Shown: positions 1-5,029 of the stretch, in pieces
Layout of the letters: each line of letters opens with the position of its first letter
Numbering within the stretch: the first letter of the stretch is position 1
Source of the DNA: an uncultured bacterium
Lineage (GTDB): Bacteria; CALINM01
Reading direction: 5' to 3'
Length of the DNA: 5,029 nt
Assembly (NCBI GenBank): GCA_938045315.1
Contig: CALINM010000097.1
Span: 1-5,029 of the forward strand
Made by a program: the position numbers and the translations under genes
The notes under the pieces: generated by a model
Told to the model about the DNA's origin: nothing
Database searches by the model: none
What the model saw: the letters and a program-made list of their open reading frames with translations, nothing else

Positions 1-1
1 G

Positions 2-958
<957 letters not shown>

Positions 959-998
959 TTTTTTAAATTTATAATGTATAAAATAATAAAATACAGGC

Positions 999-1003
999 AG
1001 GTG
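999..1003 (+). promoter_or_regulatory. Ribosome binding site of atpC
   Basis: The sequence AGGTG lies 4 nt before the ATG at 1008, inside the 49-nt atpD-atpC spacer. It supports that ATG as the start. The match and spacing are modest but acceptable. Confidence 0.6.
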
Positions 1004-1007
1004 TAAT

Positions 1008-1436
1008 ATGAAAACGATAAATCTGGATATTGCGACTCCTGAAAAAAAAATTTTTTCAGGTAAAGTAAAAGAAATTACAGCGCCTGGTATTAATGGGGAA
1101 TTTGGGATTTTGCCAGAACATGCTCCTTTTACAACTATACTTGCACCAGGTGTTGTTGAAATAACTTATGAAAATGGCAAAGTAGAATTACTGGCAGTAA
1201 GTGGTGGTTATATAGAAGTTAACAGAGAAAAGGTTATTTTACTGGTTGAGACAGCCCAAAGGCCAGAAGAGGCAGATATTGAGACAATAAAGAGAAGAAA
1301 AGAAGAAAAAGAAAAATTATTAAAAAGTAAAGATAAAAAAGATGTTGATTATGATAAAATACAAATAGAACTTTTAAGAGAAATTTCAAAATTAAAAGCA
1401 TTTGAAACATTGCAGAGGAGAAAAAAATATAAATAA
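1008..1436 (+). CDS. atpC: F1F0 ATP synthase subunit epsilon
   Basis: The epsilon subunit of F1 sits in the central stalk, couples gamma to the c-ring and can inhibit ATP hydrolysis. The 142-residue length fits the family (about 130-140). The N-terminal beta-sandwich domain (residues 1 to about 85) shows the typical ATPEKKIFSG opening, the GINGEFGILPEHAPF stretch and SGGYIEVNREKVILL. The C-terminal part (about 88-140) is a charged Lys/Glu-rich helical hairpin, which in this family is the regulatory element. The hairpin is unusually lysine-rich, with a KSKDKKDVDYDK linker, and carries a basic RRKKYK end. The start is supported by AGGTG 4 nt upstream. It follows atpD directly, and a lipoprotein gene begins 2 nt after its stop, so the three are probably co-transcribed. 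Confidence 0.96.
   Translation: MKTINLDIATPEKKIFSGKVKEITAPGINGEFGILPEHAPFTTILAPGVVEITYENGKVELLAVSGGYIEVNREKVILLVETAQRPEEADIETIKRRKEEKEKLLKSKDKKDVDYDKIQIELLREISKLKAFETLQRRKKYK
1415..1420 (+). promoter_or_regulatory. Distant Shine-Dalgarno-like GAGGAG upstream of the lipoprotein gene
   Basis: GAGGAG lies inside the last codons of atpC, with 18 nt between it and the ATG at 1439. That is longer than the usual 5-10 nt. No closer purine-rich site is present, and an in-frame stop (1430-1432) rules out an ATG further upstream. Re-initiation after the atpC stop 2 nt upstream may matter more than this site. Confidence 0.35.
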
Positions 1437-1438
1437 TT

Positions 1439-2428
1439 ATGCATAGGACGGAAGTTTTTGTTTTATTATGCATTTTTTTTCTTTCCTGTTCAGGTGAAAT
1501 AAAACTTTCTGATAAAAAATTGATTTATCTTGGTAAAATTGATTATCTAAATTATGATAAATTTTTTATTGCAAAAGAAAAACCTGCTTTGCTTATATGG
1601 AAGGATTTTTTGATTTTAAAAAGGGATTTATCAACAACACAGGATAAGTTGGAAATTTTTAATTCATTTAAGCCAGAAGGGTTATTTATTAAAAAAGGCG
1701 ATGGTAAAATATTAATTCCGCAAAGTATCGAAGATCTAAAGTATTCACCTGATGGTAAATATATTGCTTTTGTTATGCGGCTTGGCAATTCAATGAATAC
1801 AACAGTTGGCATAGCAGATGCAACTTTAAATAAAATAATTTATAGTTTTGTATTAAAAGAGCATCCACCTGTTCCGGGACGAAAATTTGAATTTGTGGCA
1901 TTTGAAAATGTTTTTACAAATCCTGTTTTTTCTGATGATAGCAAATTTTTAGCTAGTGATGTTTTTAATTATTTAAATAAACGTTTAATAAGGCTAATGG
2001 ATATTATTTCAAAAAAATATATTGATCTTGAAAATGCGATTTTTCCATGTTTTATAAACGATAAGTTATATTTTATTGATATTGATATGAACTTAAAAAA
2101 AACATACATCTCATCTTATGACTTTTCAAAAAATGAAAAAACTAAAATAAAAATAAAGGAAATAACAGAATATGTTTTATTATTTAAAAAAACTAAAAAT
2201 AATGCGTTTCTTGTAACCAGGGATAATATCTTTTATTTTGATAAAGAAAAAAAAGATATAATTAATATTATGTCTTTAAATGAAGTAAAAAATAATATAA
2301 AAAACAGTGAAATTATGCGGGTTTTTATTGAAAATTATGGTGATAAGGAGTATGTGTTTTTAATAATTAAAAAATTGAAAAACAATCAATATATATGGGA
2401 ATTATATGGGAAAATACTCAAATTTTAA
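1439..2428 (+). CDS. Predicted lipoprotein with TolB/PD40-like beta-propeller motifs, function unknown
   Basis: I do not recognise this gene as a named family member. The 329-residue product begins with a short basic segment, a hydrophobic stretch (VFVLLCIFFLS) and a lipobox-like FLSC with the cysteine at residue 17. This predicts an exported, lipid-anchored protein, although Phe at position -3 is not the preferred residue. Residues about 97-113 contain YSPDGKYIAF, the hallmark of the PD40 (WD40-like, TolB-type) propeller blade, and NPVFSDDSKFLASD at about 161-174 looks like a second, weaker blade. The rest is beta-strand-like with many Lys, Ile, Phe and Asn residues and no catalytic motif. 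Such propellers usually mediate protein contacts in the periplasm. It starts 2 nt after atpC and probably shares its transcript, but nothing in the sequence links it functionally to ATP synthase. It is more AT-rich than atpD and ends before the only intergenic gap. The ORF is well supported; the lipoprotein call is moderate and the fold is inferred from two motifs. Confidence 0.8.
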   Translation: MHRTEVFVLLCIFFLSCSGEIKLSDKKLIYLGKIDYLNYDKFFIAKEKPALLIWKDFLILKRDLSTTQDKLEIFNSFKPEGLFIKKGDGKILIPQSIEDLKYSPDGKYIAFVMRLGNSMNTTVGIADATLNKIIYSFVLKEHPPVPGRKFEFVAFENVFTNPVFSDDSKFLASDVFNYLNKRLIRLMDIISKKYIDLENAIFPCFINDKLYFIDIDMNLKKTYISSYDFSKNEKTKIKIKEITEYVLLFKKTKNNAFLVTRDNIFYFDKEKKDIINIMSLNEVKNNIKNSEIMRVFIENYGDKEYVFLIIKKLKNNQYIWELYGKILKF

Positions 2429-2521
2429 AAATATAAAAACTAAAAATTCTTTAAATTGTCTAAAAAGGTATTGCTTTAAAACGATTTTTTAATTTGTTTT
2501 TAATATATATTTCAAATTTTC

Positions 2522-2550
2522 TTGACATGGACTAAAAATAATGATATATT
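2522..2550 (+). promoter_or_regulatory. Sigma-70 type promoter for the PorV-like operon
   Basis: A perfect -35 box TTGACA (2522-2527) is followed after exactly 17 nt by TATATT (2545-2550), which matches the -10 consensus at five of six positions. Transcription would begin near 2557, giving a short leader of about 25 nt that contains the ribosome binding site. The site lies in the only intergenic gap and points at the downstream gene, which makes a chance match less likely. No operator-like inverted repeat is visible around it. Confidence 0.8.
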
Positions 2551-2567
2551 TATTTAAAGAAATAATT

Positions 2568-2575
2568 AAGAGGTG
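2568..2575 (+). promoter_or_regulatory. Ribosome binding site of the PorV-like gene
   Basis: AAGAGGTG ends 5 nt before the ATG at 2581. This is a good anti-16S match at normal spacing and fixes the start just ahead of a typical signal peptide. Confidence 0.8.
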
Positions 2576-2580
2576 AAAAT

Positions 2581-3519
2581 ATGTCAATAAAGCAGAAAAT
2601 TCTTTTAATATTTTTATCTTTTCTTTTAATTTCATCAAATTTATTTTCTGATCAGGGGACAACCGCAGCAGTGTTTTTAAAATTAGAACAGGGTGTAAGA
2701 CCAATAGCTATGGGTGGTGCTTTTACAGGTGCTGCAGATGATGTAAATGCAATAATGTGGAATCCAGCAGGACTTTCACAATTGTCCGGATTTGAGGCAA
2801 CTTTTTCTCATACCATCTGGTTTGCTGATATTTTTTATGATTATCTTGCACTTGCTTATCCGGCAGGAGAAATAGGGACATTCGGTATAAGTGTAGTTTA
2901 TTTAAATTCAGGTGAAATAAAAAAATGGGATGAATTGGGTAATGACCAGGGAAGTTTTTCGGCAAGCAATATAGGTGGAAACCTTGCATATGGAACTGTC
3001 ATAAATAAGGAATTATCTTTGGGAATTACAGTTAAATTATTTAATGAAAGTATAGATACCGAAGGCGCATTTGGTTTTGCAGCTGACTTGGGCGGTATTT
3101 ATAAGTTGCCTATAAATGGCTTGCAGTTAGGTATAAATATACAGAATTTAGGACCTAAATTTGGTTTTGGTGAAGCATTTTTATTGCCAATAATGTTAAG
3201 AATTGGTGCAAGTTATACAGGGATAAGAAATTTAATGATAAATTTAGATTATGTTCAACCAATAGAAACATTCGGAATGATTGCTGCTGGAATTGAATAC
3301 TGGTATAGGGACATTATTGTATTACGTTTAGGTTATCAATATCAGGGAATGTTTGATTTAAATCATTATTATGAAAACATAGCAGGACCAAGTATTCTTG
3401 CCGGATTTGTCATTGGAGCTGGCTTAAAAATAGATATATATAGCATAGATTATGCATATAGACAATATGGAGTTCTTGAAAGCACCCATAGGATTGGTTT
3501 GTCACTAAAGTTTAAATAA
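2581..3519 (+). CDS. PorV/PorQ (UPF0164-like) family outer-membrane beta-barrel protein
   Basis: This is a 312-residue predicted outer-membrane protein. Residues 1-23 form a signal peptide: SIKQK, then a long Leu/Ile/Phe/Ser core, with probable cleavage near LFS-DQG. Residues 38-65 hold the family hallmark: GVRPIAMGGAFTG, then AADDVNAIMWNPAGL. These match the conserved 'GARALGMGGAF...ADDA.A..WNPAGL' pattern of PorV/PorQ and related FadL-like barrels. The rest is alternating, glycine- and aromatic-rich strand sequence with short turns, and it ends in HRIGLSLKFK, a typical C-terminal barrel strand with an aromatic residue next to last. In Bacteroidetes PorV serves type IX secretion; in other phyla relatives occur widely with unknown roles, and no other secretion component is seen here, so I do not assign that function. 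It is the first gene of a unit with its own strong promoter, and yjbQ follows 1 nt after its stop. The family call is confident; the cargo or substrate is unknown. Confidence 0.88.
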   Translation: MSIKQKILLIFLSFLLISSNLFSDQGTTAAVFLKLEQGVRPIAMGGAFTGAADDVNAIMWNPAGLSQLSGFEATFSHTIWFADIFYDYLALAYPAGEIGTFGISVVYLNSGEIKKWDELGNDQGSFSASNIGGNLAYGTVINKELSLGITVKLFNESIDTEGAFGFAADLGGIYKLPINGLQLGINIQNLGPKFGFGEAFLLPIMLRIGASYTGIRNLMINLDYVQPIETFGMIAAGIEYWYRDIIVLRLGYQYQGMFDLNHYYENIAGPSILAGFVIGAGLKIDIYSIDYAYRQYGVLESTHRIGLSLKFK

Positions 3520-3520
3520 T

Positions 3521-3910
3521 ATGTTTGAATTTACAATAAGTTCTACAAAAAGAATTGAGATGATAGATATAACTGCAAAAGTTCAGGACATTGTAAGCAA
3601 AAGCAAGATAAAAGATGGTATAATTTTTTTATTTGTGCCACATACAACAGCAGGACTTACTATAAATGAAAATGCAGATGTATCAGTCCAAAAAGATATA
3701 ATAAAAAAAATGAATCAGATTATACCAAAAGATGATGATTATTTTCATTCAGAAGGAAATTCTGATTCGCACATAAAATCAACAGTTACAGGATGCGAAA
3801 AATTTATTTTTATCAAGGATGAAAAATTATGTCTTGGAACCTGGCAGGGTATTTATTTTTGTGAATTTGATGGACCAAGAAAAAGAAAGATCTATTGCAA
3901 AATTATATAA
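3521..3910 (+). CDS. yjbQ: YjbQ/UPF0047 family protein (secondary thiamine-phosphate synthase-like)
   Basis: This is a small cytoplasmic protein of the YjbQ family. Members are annotated as secondary thiamine-phosphate synthases because the E. coli protein has weak activity of that kind; the true physiological role is not settled. The 129-residue length is close to the family norm (about 130-140). Conserved elements seen are EMIDIT (13-18), HTTAG (41-45), NENAD (49-53), His76 followed by EGNSDSHIK (78-86), Gly91, and the strongly diagnostic LGTWQGIYFCEFDGPR (105-120). The conserved His and Asp residues thought to form the active or metal site are intact. It starts 1 nt after the porin-like gene with no recognisable Shine-Dalgarno sequence, so its translation probably depends on ribosomes finishing that gene. 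The start at 3521 gives the usual family N-terminus. The functional link to its neighbours is unclear. The family assignment is very secure; the biochemical role is tentative. Confidence 0.95.
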   Translation: MFEFTISSTKRIEMIDITAKVQDIVSKSKIKDGIIFLFVPHTTAGLTINENADVSVQKDIIKKMNQIIPKDDDYFHSEGNSDSHIKSTVTGCEKFIFIKDEKLCLGTWQGIYFCEFDGPRKRKIYCKII

Positions 3911-3917
3911 TAATTTC

Positions 3918-3923
3918 AGGAGG
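3918..3923 (+). promoter_or_regulatory. Consensus ribosome binding site of the ABC ATPase gene
   Basis: AGGAGG lies 7 nt before the ATG at 3931, in the 20-nt spacer after yjbQ. An in-frame TAA (3928-3930) directly precedes the ATG, so this start is unambiguous. It is the best Shine-Dalgarno match in the window, suggesting strong translation. Confidence 0.85.
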
Positions 3924-3930
3924 CAAGTAA

Positions 3931-5029
3931 ATGGCAAGGGTAGTATTAAAAAACGTAGTAAAGAAATATGGAAATGTATTAGCAGTAAAGAATGCAAATA
4001 TAGTATGTGAGGACAAAGAATTTTTAATATTAGTAGGGCCATCAGGATGCGGAAAGACAACGACATTAAGGATGATAGCAGGTTTAGAAGAGGCAAGTGG
4101 GGGTGAGATATATATAGATGATGTATTGGTAAATGATGTGCCGCCGAAAGACAGGGATATAGCGATGGTTTTTCAGAATTATGCATTATATCCGCATATG
4201 ACGGTATATGACAATATGGCATTTGGTTTAAAGTTAAGGAAATATCCGAAGTCAGAGATAGACCAGAGGGTAAATGAGGCAGCAGACATATTAGGTATAA
4301 AGCATTTATTAAAGAGGAAGCCGAAGGAATTATCAGGAGGAGAGAGGCAGAGGGTAGCAGTGGGAAGGGCAATAGTGAGGAAGCCGAAGGTATTTTTATT
4401 TGATGAGCCGTTATCAAATTTAGATGCAAAATTAAGGACGCAGATGAGGGCGGAATTAAGCAAATTACATACGAGGTTACAGGCGACGATGATATATGTA
4501 ACACATGACCAGGTAGAAGCGATGACAATGGGAGAAAAGATAGTGGTAATGAAGGATGGTGAGATACAGCAGATAGCAGACCCTGCGACATTATATTCAA
4601 AGCCTGTAAATAAGTTTGTAGCCGGATTTATAGGAAGTCCGTCAATGAATTTTATGGAAGGGATATTAGAGGAAAAGAAAGGTGGGTTATATTTTAACGA
4701 AGAGAATTTTGAGGTAAAAGTGCCGGATGATATGGTAGAAAAAGTAAAGAGTAAAGTTGGGGAAGAGATAATAATGGGTATAAGGCCTGAGGATATACAT
4801 GATAAGATATATGCGCCGAATGCAAGCGCAGATAATACAGTGGTAGGGACAGTTGAAGTGGTAGAGCAGTTAGGGAATGTAAATTACATATATTTAACAA
4901 CAGGTAAGACGCCATTTATAGCGAGATTTGAGCCGATATCCGAGGCAACAGTAAATCAGGAGATAGAAGTTGTGTTTGATATGAGCAAGGTTCATTTTTT
5001 TGATCCAAAAACTGAAATGGCTCTAACAT
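3931..5029 (+). CDS. ugpC: Carbohydrate ABC transporter ATP-binding subunit, MalK/UgpC/MsmX type (3' partial)
   Basis: This is the cytoplasmic ATPase that powers a sugar or glycerol-phosphate type (CUT1) importer. The frame is open from the ATG to the window edge: 366 complete codons and one extra base. Relatives are about 360-375 residues, so only a few residues and the stop are missing. Motifs in order are: aromatic A-loop Tyr13; Walker A GPSGCGKT (36-43); Q-loop Gln82 in FQNYALYPHM; signature LSGGERQRVA (134-143, with Glu where MalK usually has Gln); Walker B VFLFDEP (154-160); D-loop SNLD (162-165); and switch His192 in YVTHDQVEAM. After about residue 235 comes the TOBE/OB-fold regulatory domain with GSPSMNF, GIRPEDI (284-289 region) and a terminal FFDP segment. 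This C-terminal domain is what marks the MalK/UgpC group. The gene name is used at family level only: no permease or binding protein is present, so the substrate is unknown and the ATPase may serve several transporters, as MsmX does. Codon use is strikingly unlike its neighbours. Confidence 0.95.
   Translation, partial: MARVVLKNVVKKYGNVLAVKNANIVCEDKEFLILVGPSGCGKTTTLRMIAGLEEASGGEIYIDDVLVNDVPPKDRDIAMVFQNYALYPHMTVYDNMAFGLKLRKYPKSEIDQRVNEAADILGIKHLLKRKPKELSGGERQRVAVGRAIVRKPKVFLFDEPLSNLDAKLRTQMRAELSKLHTRLQATMIYVTHDQVEAMTMGEKIVVMKDGEIQQIADPATLYSKPVNKFVAGFIGSPSMNFMEGILEEKKGGLYFNEENFEVKVPDDMVEKVKSKVGEEIIMGIRPEDIHDKIYAPNASADNTVVGTVEVVEQLGNVNYIYLTTGKTPFIARFEPISEATVNQEIEVVFDMSKVHFFDPKTEMALT

Follow-up and report, generated by a model that had tools for sequence, protein, structure and literature searches.

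Extreme purine-ending codon usage in a malK-type ATPase gene and its relation to gene duplication and EF-Tu genes in a candidate-phylum bacterium

Introduction

Why should one gene in an otherwise ordinary run of bacterial genes end nearly all of its codons in a purine? The question is raised by a contig of 5029 bases (contig C97 of genome bin G000), which was analyzed whole and is called the window here. Its last gene, truncated by the contig end just short of the stop codon, encodes an ABC importer ATPase of the malK/ugpC type (hereafter malK). The analysis below asks where the gene comes from, which relatives and which other genes share its codon style, and what could maintain it.

Results and discussion

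The malK gene and its codon usage

The features of the window are collected in Table 1. The malK product matches the subfamily model PRK11650 with 472.3 bits (cut-off 432); it carries an ABC_tran domain with a Walker A motif (GPSGCGKT) and an LSGGE signature, as well as the C-terminal regulatory domains OB_MalK and TOBE (TOBE_2).

Table 1. Features of the 5029 bp window
Feature	Position	Strand	Remarks
atpD, F-type ATP synthase beta, 5′ cut	2..958	+	ordinary codons; single-copy highly expressed control
atpC, ATP synthase epsilon	1008..1436	+	named by position after atpD; ordinary codons
orphan ORF between atpC and porV	1439..2428	+	no family match; ordinary codons
PorV/PorQ-family outer-membrane protein	2581..3519	+	NF033709, 198 bits; ordinary codons
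yjbQ	3521..3910	+	TIGR00149; ordinary codons
257-aa antisense ORF	3827..4600	-	probably not a gene
AGGAGG Shine-Dalgarno of malK	3918..3923	+	read off the sequence
malK/ugpC-type (MsmX-like) ABC importer ATPase gene	3931..5028	+	extreme purine-ending codons; 366 codons; PRK11650, ABC_tran, OB_MalK, TOBE_2
biased portion of malK	3931..4962	+	purine-ending share near 0.9; 5′ end without drop
last 22 malK codons	4963..5028	+	purine bias gone (4/8); GTT, GTT, ACT, GCT, CTA present

A recount of the malK codons agrees with the hand counts of the initial annotation: Ile is ATA in 25 of 25 cases, Leu TTA in 25 of 27, and Arg AGG in 14 of 15; upstream of position 4969 Thr is always ACR (16/16) and Ala nearly always GCR (23/24), and Pro and Val are mostly CCG (11/17) and GTA (26/39), respectively. 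All ten Gln codons are CAG (10/10), and AAG and GAG make up 20 of 32 and 17 of 31 codons in their families, compared to background shares of 0.12 and 0.11 in G768, the genome identified below as that of the source organism. As a single measure we use R3, the purine-ending share over Ile, Val, Thr, Ala, Pro, and Gly codons. R3 of the window malK is 0.87, and since about 280 genes of the bin have a mean of 0.47 (sd 0.063), chance is not the cause; in G768 the mean is 0.53 (sd 0.068; 527 genes of at least 120 amino acids, about one third of the genome). The unusual codon preference is thus real, and the codon counts of atpD, atpC, the orphan ORF, porV, and yjbQ likewise bear out the description of its neighbors as ordinary. 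An ORF of similar size occupies the place of the orphan ORF in the related genome G767. The antisense ORF that overlaps the start of malK was considered as a gene and judged to be a by-product of the composition of the purine-rich coding strand.

Source of the contig

The contig is misbinned, and its origin is a G768-like organism, not the genome under which it is filed. Membership in the bin is ruled out by three observations. First, contig C187 of the bin carries another atpD, which is complete and whose protein is 77% identical to that of the window; the C187 gene shares 84% DNA identity with the same-genus relative G001, and the window atpD only 73%. Second, apart from one stretch (L116), no sampled contig of the bin deviates in codon profile as strongly as the window, and the CCC share in the window genes is 0.03 vs about 0.22 in the bin. 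Third, window positions 1–4071 match genome G768 at 99.98%. In addition, malK bases 961–1099 are a 100% match to another G768 contig, and a second genome, G767, matches window positions 1–3980 at 82%. These two genomes fall in the phylum of a genome labeled Candidatus Firestonebacteria (L051/G046), the phylum name being taken from that label alone; a search of the Elusimicrobiota outgroup turned up nothing closely related to the contig. The L116 stretch (G000:C12:1-20000) has itself a strongly deviant codon profile (KL 0.073) and is possibly a prophage.

A wrongly assigned contig invites the suspicion that the biased gene is itself an assembly or binning artefact, the product of a chimeric contig or of a mixture of organisms, and the second atpD and the CCC deficit do show the misbinning to be real. 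However, the independent genome G768 has a matching sequence through the malK start as well as the malK end, and the gene order is common to related genomes; the malK junction and its bias are therefore real. The misbinning stands, but an artefact is refuted for malK itself and is the least credible of all the readings weighed here.

Two malK copies that evolve in concert

One clade of the phylum keeps malK in two copies, one downstream of atpDC-porV-yjbQ and the other beside recG. Both are readable in G775, where one follows atpDC-porV and the other lies beside recG; their flanks are unrelated, yet they are 99.73% identical from ATG to stop and differ at only three positions, all of them within the final 40 bases. 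Between species malK diverges by 13–30%, and the G775 copies, 99.7% identical to each other, share only 73–87% identity with other genomes that have a full-length malK. By this comparison the malK copies evolve in concert, since the full-length readable copies are near-identical, also at synonymous sites, while the species differ.

In G768, G767, G764, G771, and others the assembly breaks within malK, and contigs of G768, G773, and G765 end or begin 141 bases past its ATG, as is expected from a long exact repeat starting at the ATG. The 3′ ends of malK adjoin the recG locus in G762, G763, G764, G767, G773, G774, and G775, and the gene order downstream of the window's copy recurs on contig C31 of G768 and in G775. 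Contig breaks about 140 bases inside each gene end suggest that the window's own species also has two near-identical malK copies. The window malK is best explained as one (copy A) of two copies of a MalK/MsmX-type ATPase gene in a candidate-phylum bacterium.

Inheritance of the bias within the clade

Orthologs of malK in the clade have R3 values of 0.92–0.97 (G764), 0.84 (G772, from one or two copies), 0.72–0.74 (G775), 0.67–0.72 (G771), 0.65 (G774), and 0.62 (G762), and the genomic backgrounds are near 0.5. The first 91 codons of the G769 gene, which are all that is known of it, have an R3 of 0.55, near background. The single-copy malK genes of sister lineages are unbiased (0.44 in G753, 0.46 in G737, and 0.51 in G741). 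The bias of malK thus goes with duplication and homogenization and is missing where the gene is single, and copy number is the factor that the initial annotation, made from one window, could not see.

One explanation offered there was that the gene came from a donor that favors ATA, TTA, and AGG. The gene does stand apart from its neighbors, and the two relatives of the bin have no close malK, but they are relatives of a genome that is not the real host. Transfer is contradicted by orthologs with the same bias and conserved neighbors, which are found across the clade, several of them in the same neighborhood, and homologs fetched from other lineages fall short of the style (best R3 0.68). Horizontal acquisition, which we regard as very improbable, is rejected on these orthologs and this gene order, the style being present in vertical relatives and the gene lying within conserved synteny. 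Because clade orthologs share the bias to varying degree, it is inherited within the clade and not the result of recent transfer.

EF-Tu shares the style, and other abundant proteins do not

Among the genes sampled, the full style was found only in malK and in duplicated tuf, which encodes EF-Tu. The tuf pairs of G764 (L299:537-1736 and L299:16288-17487; R3 0.90) and G767 (L301:16650-17849 and L302:12160-13359; R3 0.88) are each identical within the coding sequence; they have the AAG, GAG, CAG, and AGG preferences of malK, and the codon log-odds profiles of tuf and malK are correlated with r = 0.84 and 0.76. All lineages examined in which most of tuf can be read have a raised R3 for it (0.64–0.78); several of them show a second copy outright or imply one by a break in a contig. 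In most other clade genomes tuf is absent or fragmentary, as is expected if a repeat breaks the assembly.

EF-Tu, ribosomal proteins, EF-G, and GroEL are the classic carriers of translationally selected codon bias. The present case resembles translational selection in that EF-Tu carries the bias and a preferred-codon style is common to two genes, but it differs in that ribosomal proteins, EF-G, and GroEL show no shift. In ribosomal proteins the shift is 0.035 ± 0.045 logits (mean of ten measures), compared to roughly 0.6–3.9 for tuf and malK; EF-G, which lies beside tuf in the str cluster, as well as RpoBC, ATP synthase, GroEL, and DnaK, are at background and have none of the malK/tuf bias. 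Selection on a highly expressed gene, a second possibility raised initially, thus finds support in EF-Tu and none in these other genes, and simple expression-linked bias is rejected on the ribosomal proteins, EF-G, GroEL, DnaK, and ATP synthase. Among the tRNA genes in about one third of the genome, Lys-TTT and Glu-TTC were seen, and Lys-CTT and Glu-CTC were not, a point against the selective reading preferred below.

The purine class is conserved at synonymous sites, and the bias is lost near the stop codon

In tuf and malK, synonymous sites keep a purine but let A and G replace each other freely, A/G differences being frequent and purine/pyrimidine differences rare. Between the G764 and G767 tuf genes the 132 sites in shared four-codon boxes include 38 A/G and 18 purine/pyrimidine differences, and for EF-G of the same two genomes the figures are 19 and 83 of 170. 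Similarly, the window malK and its G764 ortholog show 35 A/G and 15 purine/pyrimidine differences at 101 sites, vs 13 and 36 at 110 sites for atpD. In AAR, GAR, CAR, and AGR, G is preferred to A in malK and tuf. Ser codons, whose numbers are small, have a TCR share of 0.50–0.90 vs 0.41–0.43, with no consistent gain of the purine-richer AGY; this speaks for the wobble position and not for purine content as such. Purine loading of the mRNA, the third possibility in the initial annotation, fits as far as selection at the purine/pyrimidine level is concerned, but as a property of the whole mRNA it is weakened by the Ser codons, which shift to TCR and not consistently to AGY.

The bias fades over the final 8–22 codons of both genes. 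The change of style that had been placed near position 4969 of the window is there, with 4 of 8 codons purine-ending among the last 22 of malK vs 113 of 128 mid-gene; the corresponding values are 3/8 in G775 and 3/7 in G772, and other genomes show a smaller drop. In G764 tuf, 5 of 14 are purine-ending in the last 22 codons vs 150 of 158 in the body, and six other tuf genes show a similar 3′ loss. There was no end effect on the purine-ending share in 352 ordinary genes, and no loss of bias at the 5′ end of malK and tuf in strongly biased genomes.

In Bacillus subtilis, runaway transcription has been shown to go with a genome-wide purine bias that protects against premature Rho termination (Dierksheide et al. 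2026, PMC13323073). Applied here, a purine-rich, C-poor coding strand would guard the transcript from premature Rho termination, most strongly in the most transcribed genes. The published mechanism gives purine wobble bases in four-codon families, as observed here, and the coding strand is pyrimidine-poor in both cases; the preference for G over A in AAR, GAR, CAR, and AGR would lower the excess of C over G, and loss of bias near the stop might be expected because a Rho site there would end transcription beyond the gene. On the other hand, the published effect is genome-wide, while the genome here is moderate (mean R3 about 0.53) with ordinary genes flat along their length, the bias is extreme in very few genes and lost near the stop, EF-G beside tuf is at background, and Ser makes no consistent move to AGY. 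We consider Rho avoidance quite improbable as the main cause.

Gene conversion and other genes that lean toward or away from the style

Gene conversion is open only to genes that have a near-identical partner. The bias could arise from the conversion itself if strand-asymmetric heteroduplex repair pushed coding-strand third positions to purine; the codon style would then be a side effect of concerted evolution and not a consequence of expression. Several observations agree with this. The bias is all-or-none with duplication, tuf being biased in every lineage tested and malK only where duplicated, and single-copy highly expressed genes are unaffected. Less alike copies have a weaker bias (G774, 92%, and G762, 96.5% over the shared 3′ part), and the bias is lost in the last codons, adjoining the end of homology, where the three G775 differences also lie. 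However, the 5′ edge, where homology stops too, shows no drop, and we know of no repair bias that acts by coding strand.

Other genes bear on the same point. In the G768 sample only two transposases and a cluster of giant surface ORFs approach the style, and they do so without the full AAG/GAG shift. The transposases (L247:13399-14655 and L408:1019-1540; Mutator/IS256 type, with a weak DDE_Tnp_1_4 match) have an R3 of 0.90 and mostly ordinary AAA/GAA usage. The surface cluster (L425:4204-11277) consists of three adjacent large ORFs with DUF11 and FlgD_ig domains near GroEL and DnaK, which are probably one broken or split giant gene; R3 is 0.79–0.81 and the ATA share 0.79–0.97. Large surface proteins of G764 have R3 values of 0.74–0.92. 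Giant surface proteins with an R3 of 0.8 and no near-identical copy in the sampled DNA count against a conversion origin.

G764 also has a tandem pair of giant proteins (L305:7768-13572 and L305:13579-18480) with Thr/Pro/Ser linkers, in one of which, scanned for domains, GH8, DUF11, and CHU_C were found. Over 1.8 kb the two are 92% identical, and their codons tend to end in pyrimidines, the reverse of malK and tuf; R3 is 0.24 in the repeat and 0.41–0.42 in the C-terminal part. It too speaks against conversion as the cause, though it may be recent and is of low complexity. In G764 as a whole R3 is 0.62 inside repeats vs 0.55 outside; with the GH8/DUF11 pair at 0.24, the notion that all repeats become purine-ending is not general. 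A bias driven by conversion seems to us somewhat unlikely, and the broader proposition, that conversion between duplicates is itself the source of coding-strand purine bias in the phylum and that codon usage there marks homogenized rather than highly expressed genes, a little less likely still.

A tentative explanation

The reading that we prefer, with a probability of roughly 0.45, is that selection for purines at the wobble position acts on only a few genes, which were duplicated for dosage and are homogenized by gene conversion. The lineage has duplicated malK, and the same lineages hold tuf as two identical copies, perhaps because their products are required in very large amounts; EF-Tu and a single putative shared ATPase powering many sugar importers are plausible high-demand products. 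Gene conversion would keep the copies alike. Selection on their abundant mRNAs would be strong enough to prevail over drift and would favor purines at the wobble base (U34/C34 tRNAs read such codons, and the mRNA is then pyrimidine-poor). Ordinary genes, those for ribosomal proteins among them, would remain at the mutational background. The selected step might be decoding or the avoidance of premature transcription termination. The main weak point of this selection is that other normally abundant genes are flat: if selection scaled with expression, it would have to set in very steeply at some threshold, because EF-G, RpoC, ATP synthase, GroEL, and DnaK are at background. The transposases (0.90) and giant surface proteins (0.79–0.81) are further counter-evidence, since they share part of the style and need not be highly expressed. 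We nevertheless keep the order of selection with dosage first, conversion-driven bias second, and Rho avoidance third.

Comparison with known systems and implications

Pairs of tufA and tufB are two distant copies whose coding sequences are kept identical by gene conversion while their flanks are unrelated. The malK genes described here are like them in being distant copies that are near-identical over the coding sequence and have unrelated flanks, and the tuf genes of the lineage have the same codon style. We know of no report of malK as a concertedly evolving pair. To our knowledge, a codon style limited to homogenized pairs and absent from ribosomal proteins is also not part of described tuf biology. 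A text search of a 2018 survey (PMC6053082) did not find the term "ABC transporter." B. subtilis has multitask sugar-importer ATPases of the MsmX type (PMC5730181, PMC7658222). Like these, the window gene encodes a stand-alone MalK/UgpC ATPase away from transporter operons, plausibly shared by several importers; unlike them, it is duplicated and homogenized.

Two practical consequences follow. The repeats account for the way in which tuf and malK break or vanish in short-read genomes of the phylum, and a screen for foreign genes that relies on composition would have misjudged malK. More generally, codon bias is usually taken to rise gradually with expression and to peak in ribosomal proteins. 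In this case it is close to all-or-none, full in two duplicated and homogenized genes and missing from the translation machinery that surrounds them. The retention of a purine class rather than of particular codons, together with the exemption of the codons near the stop, allows copy number and conversion, decoding, and transcription termination to be separated testably as causes of the bias.
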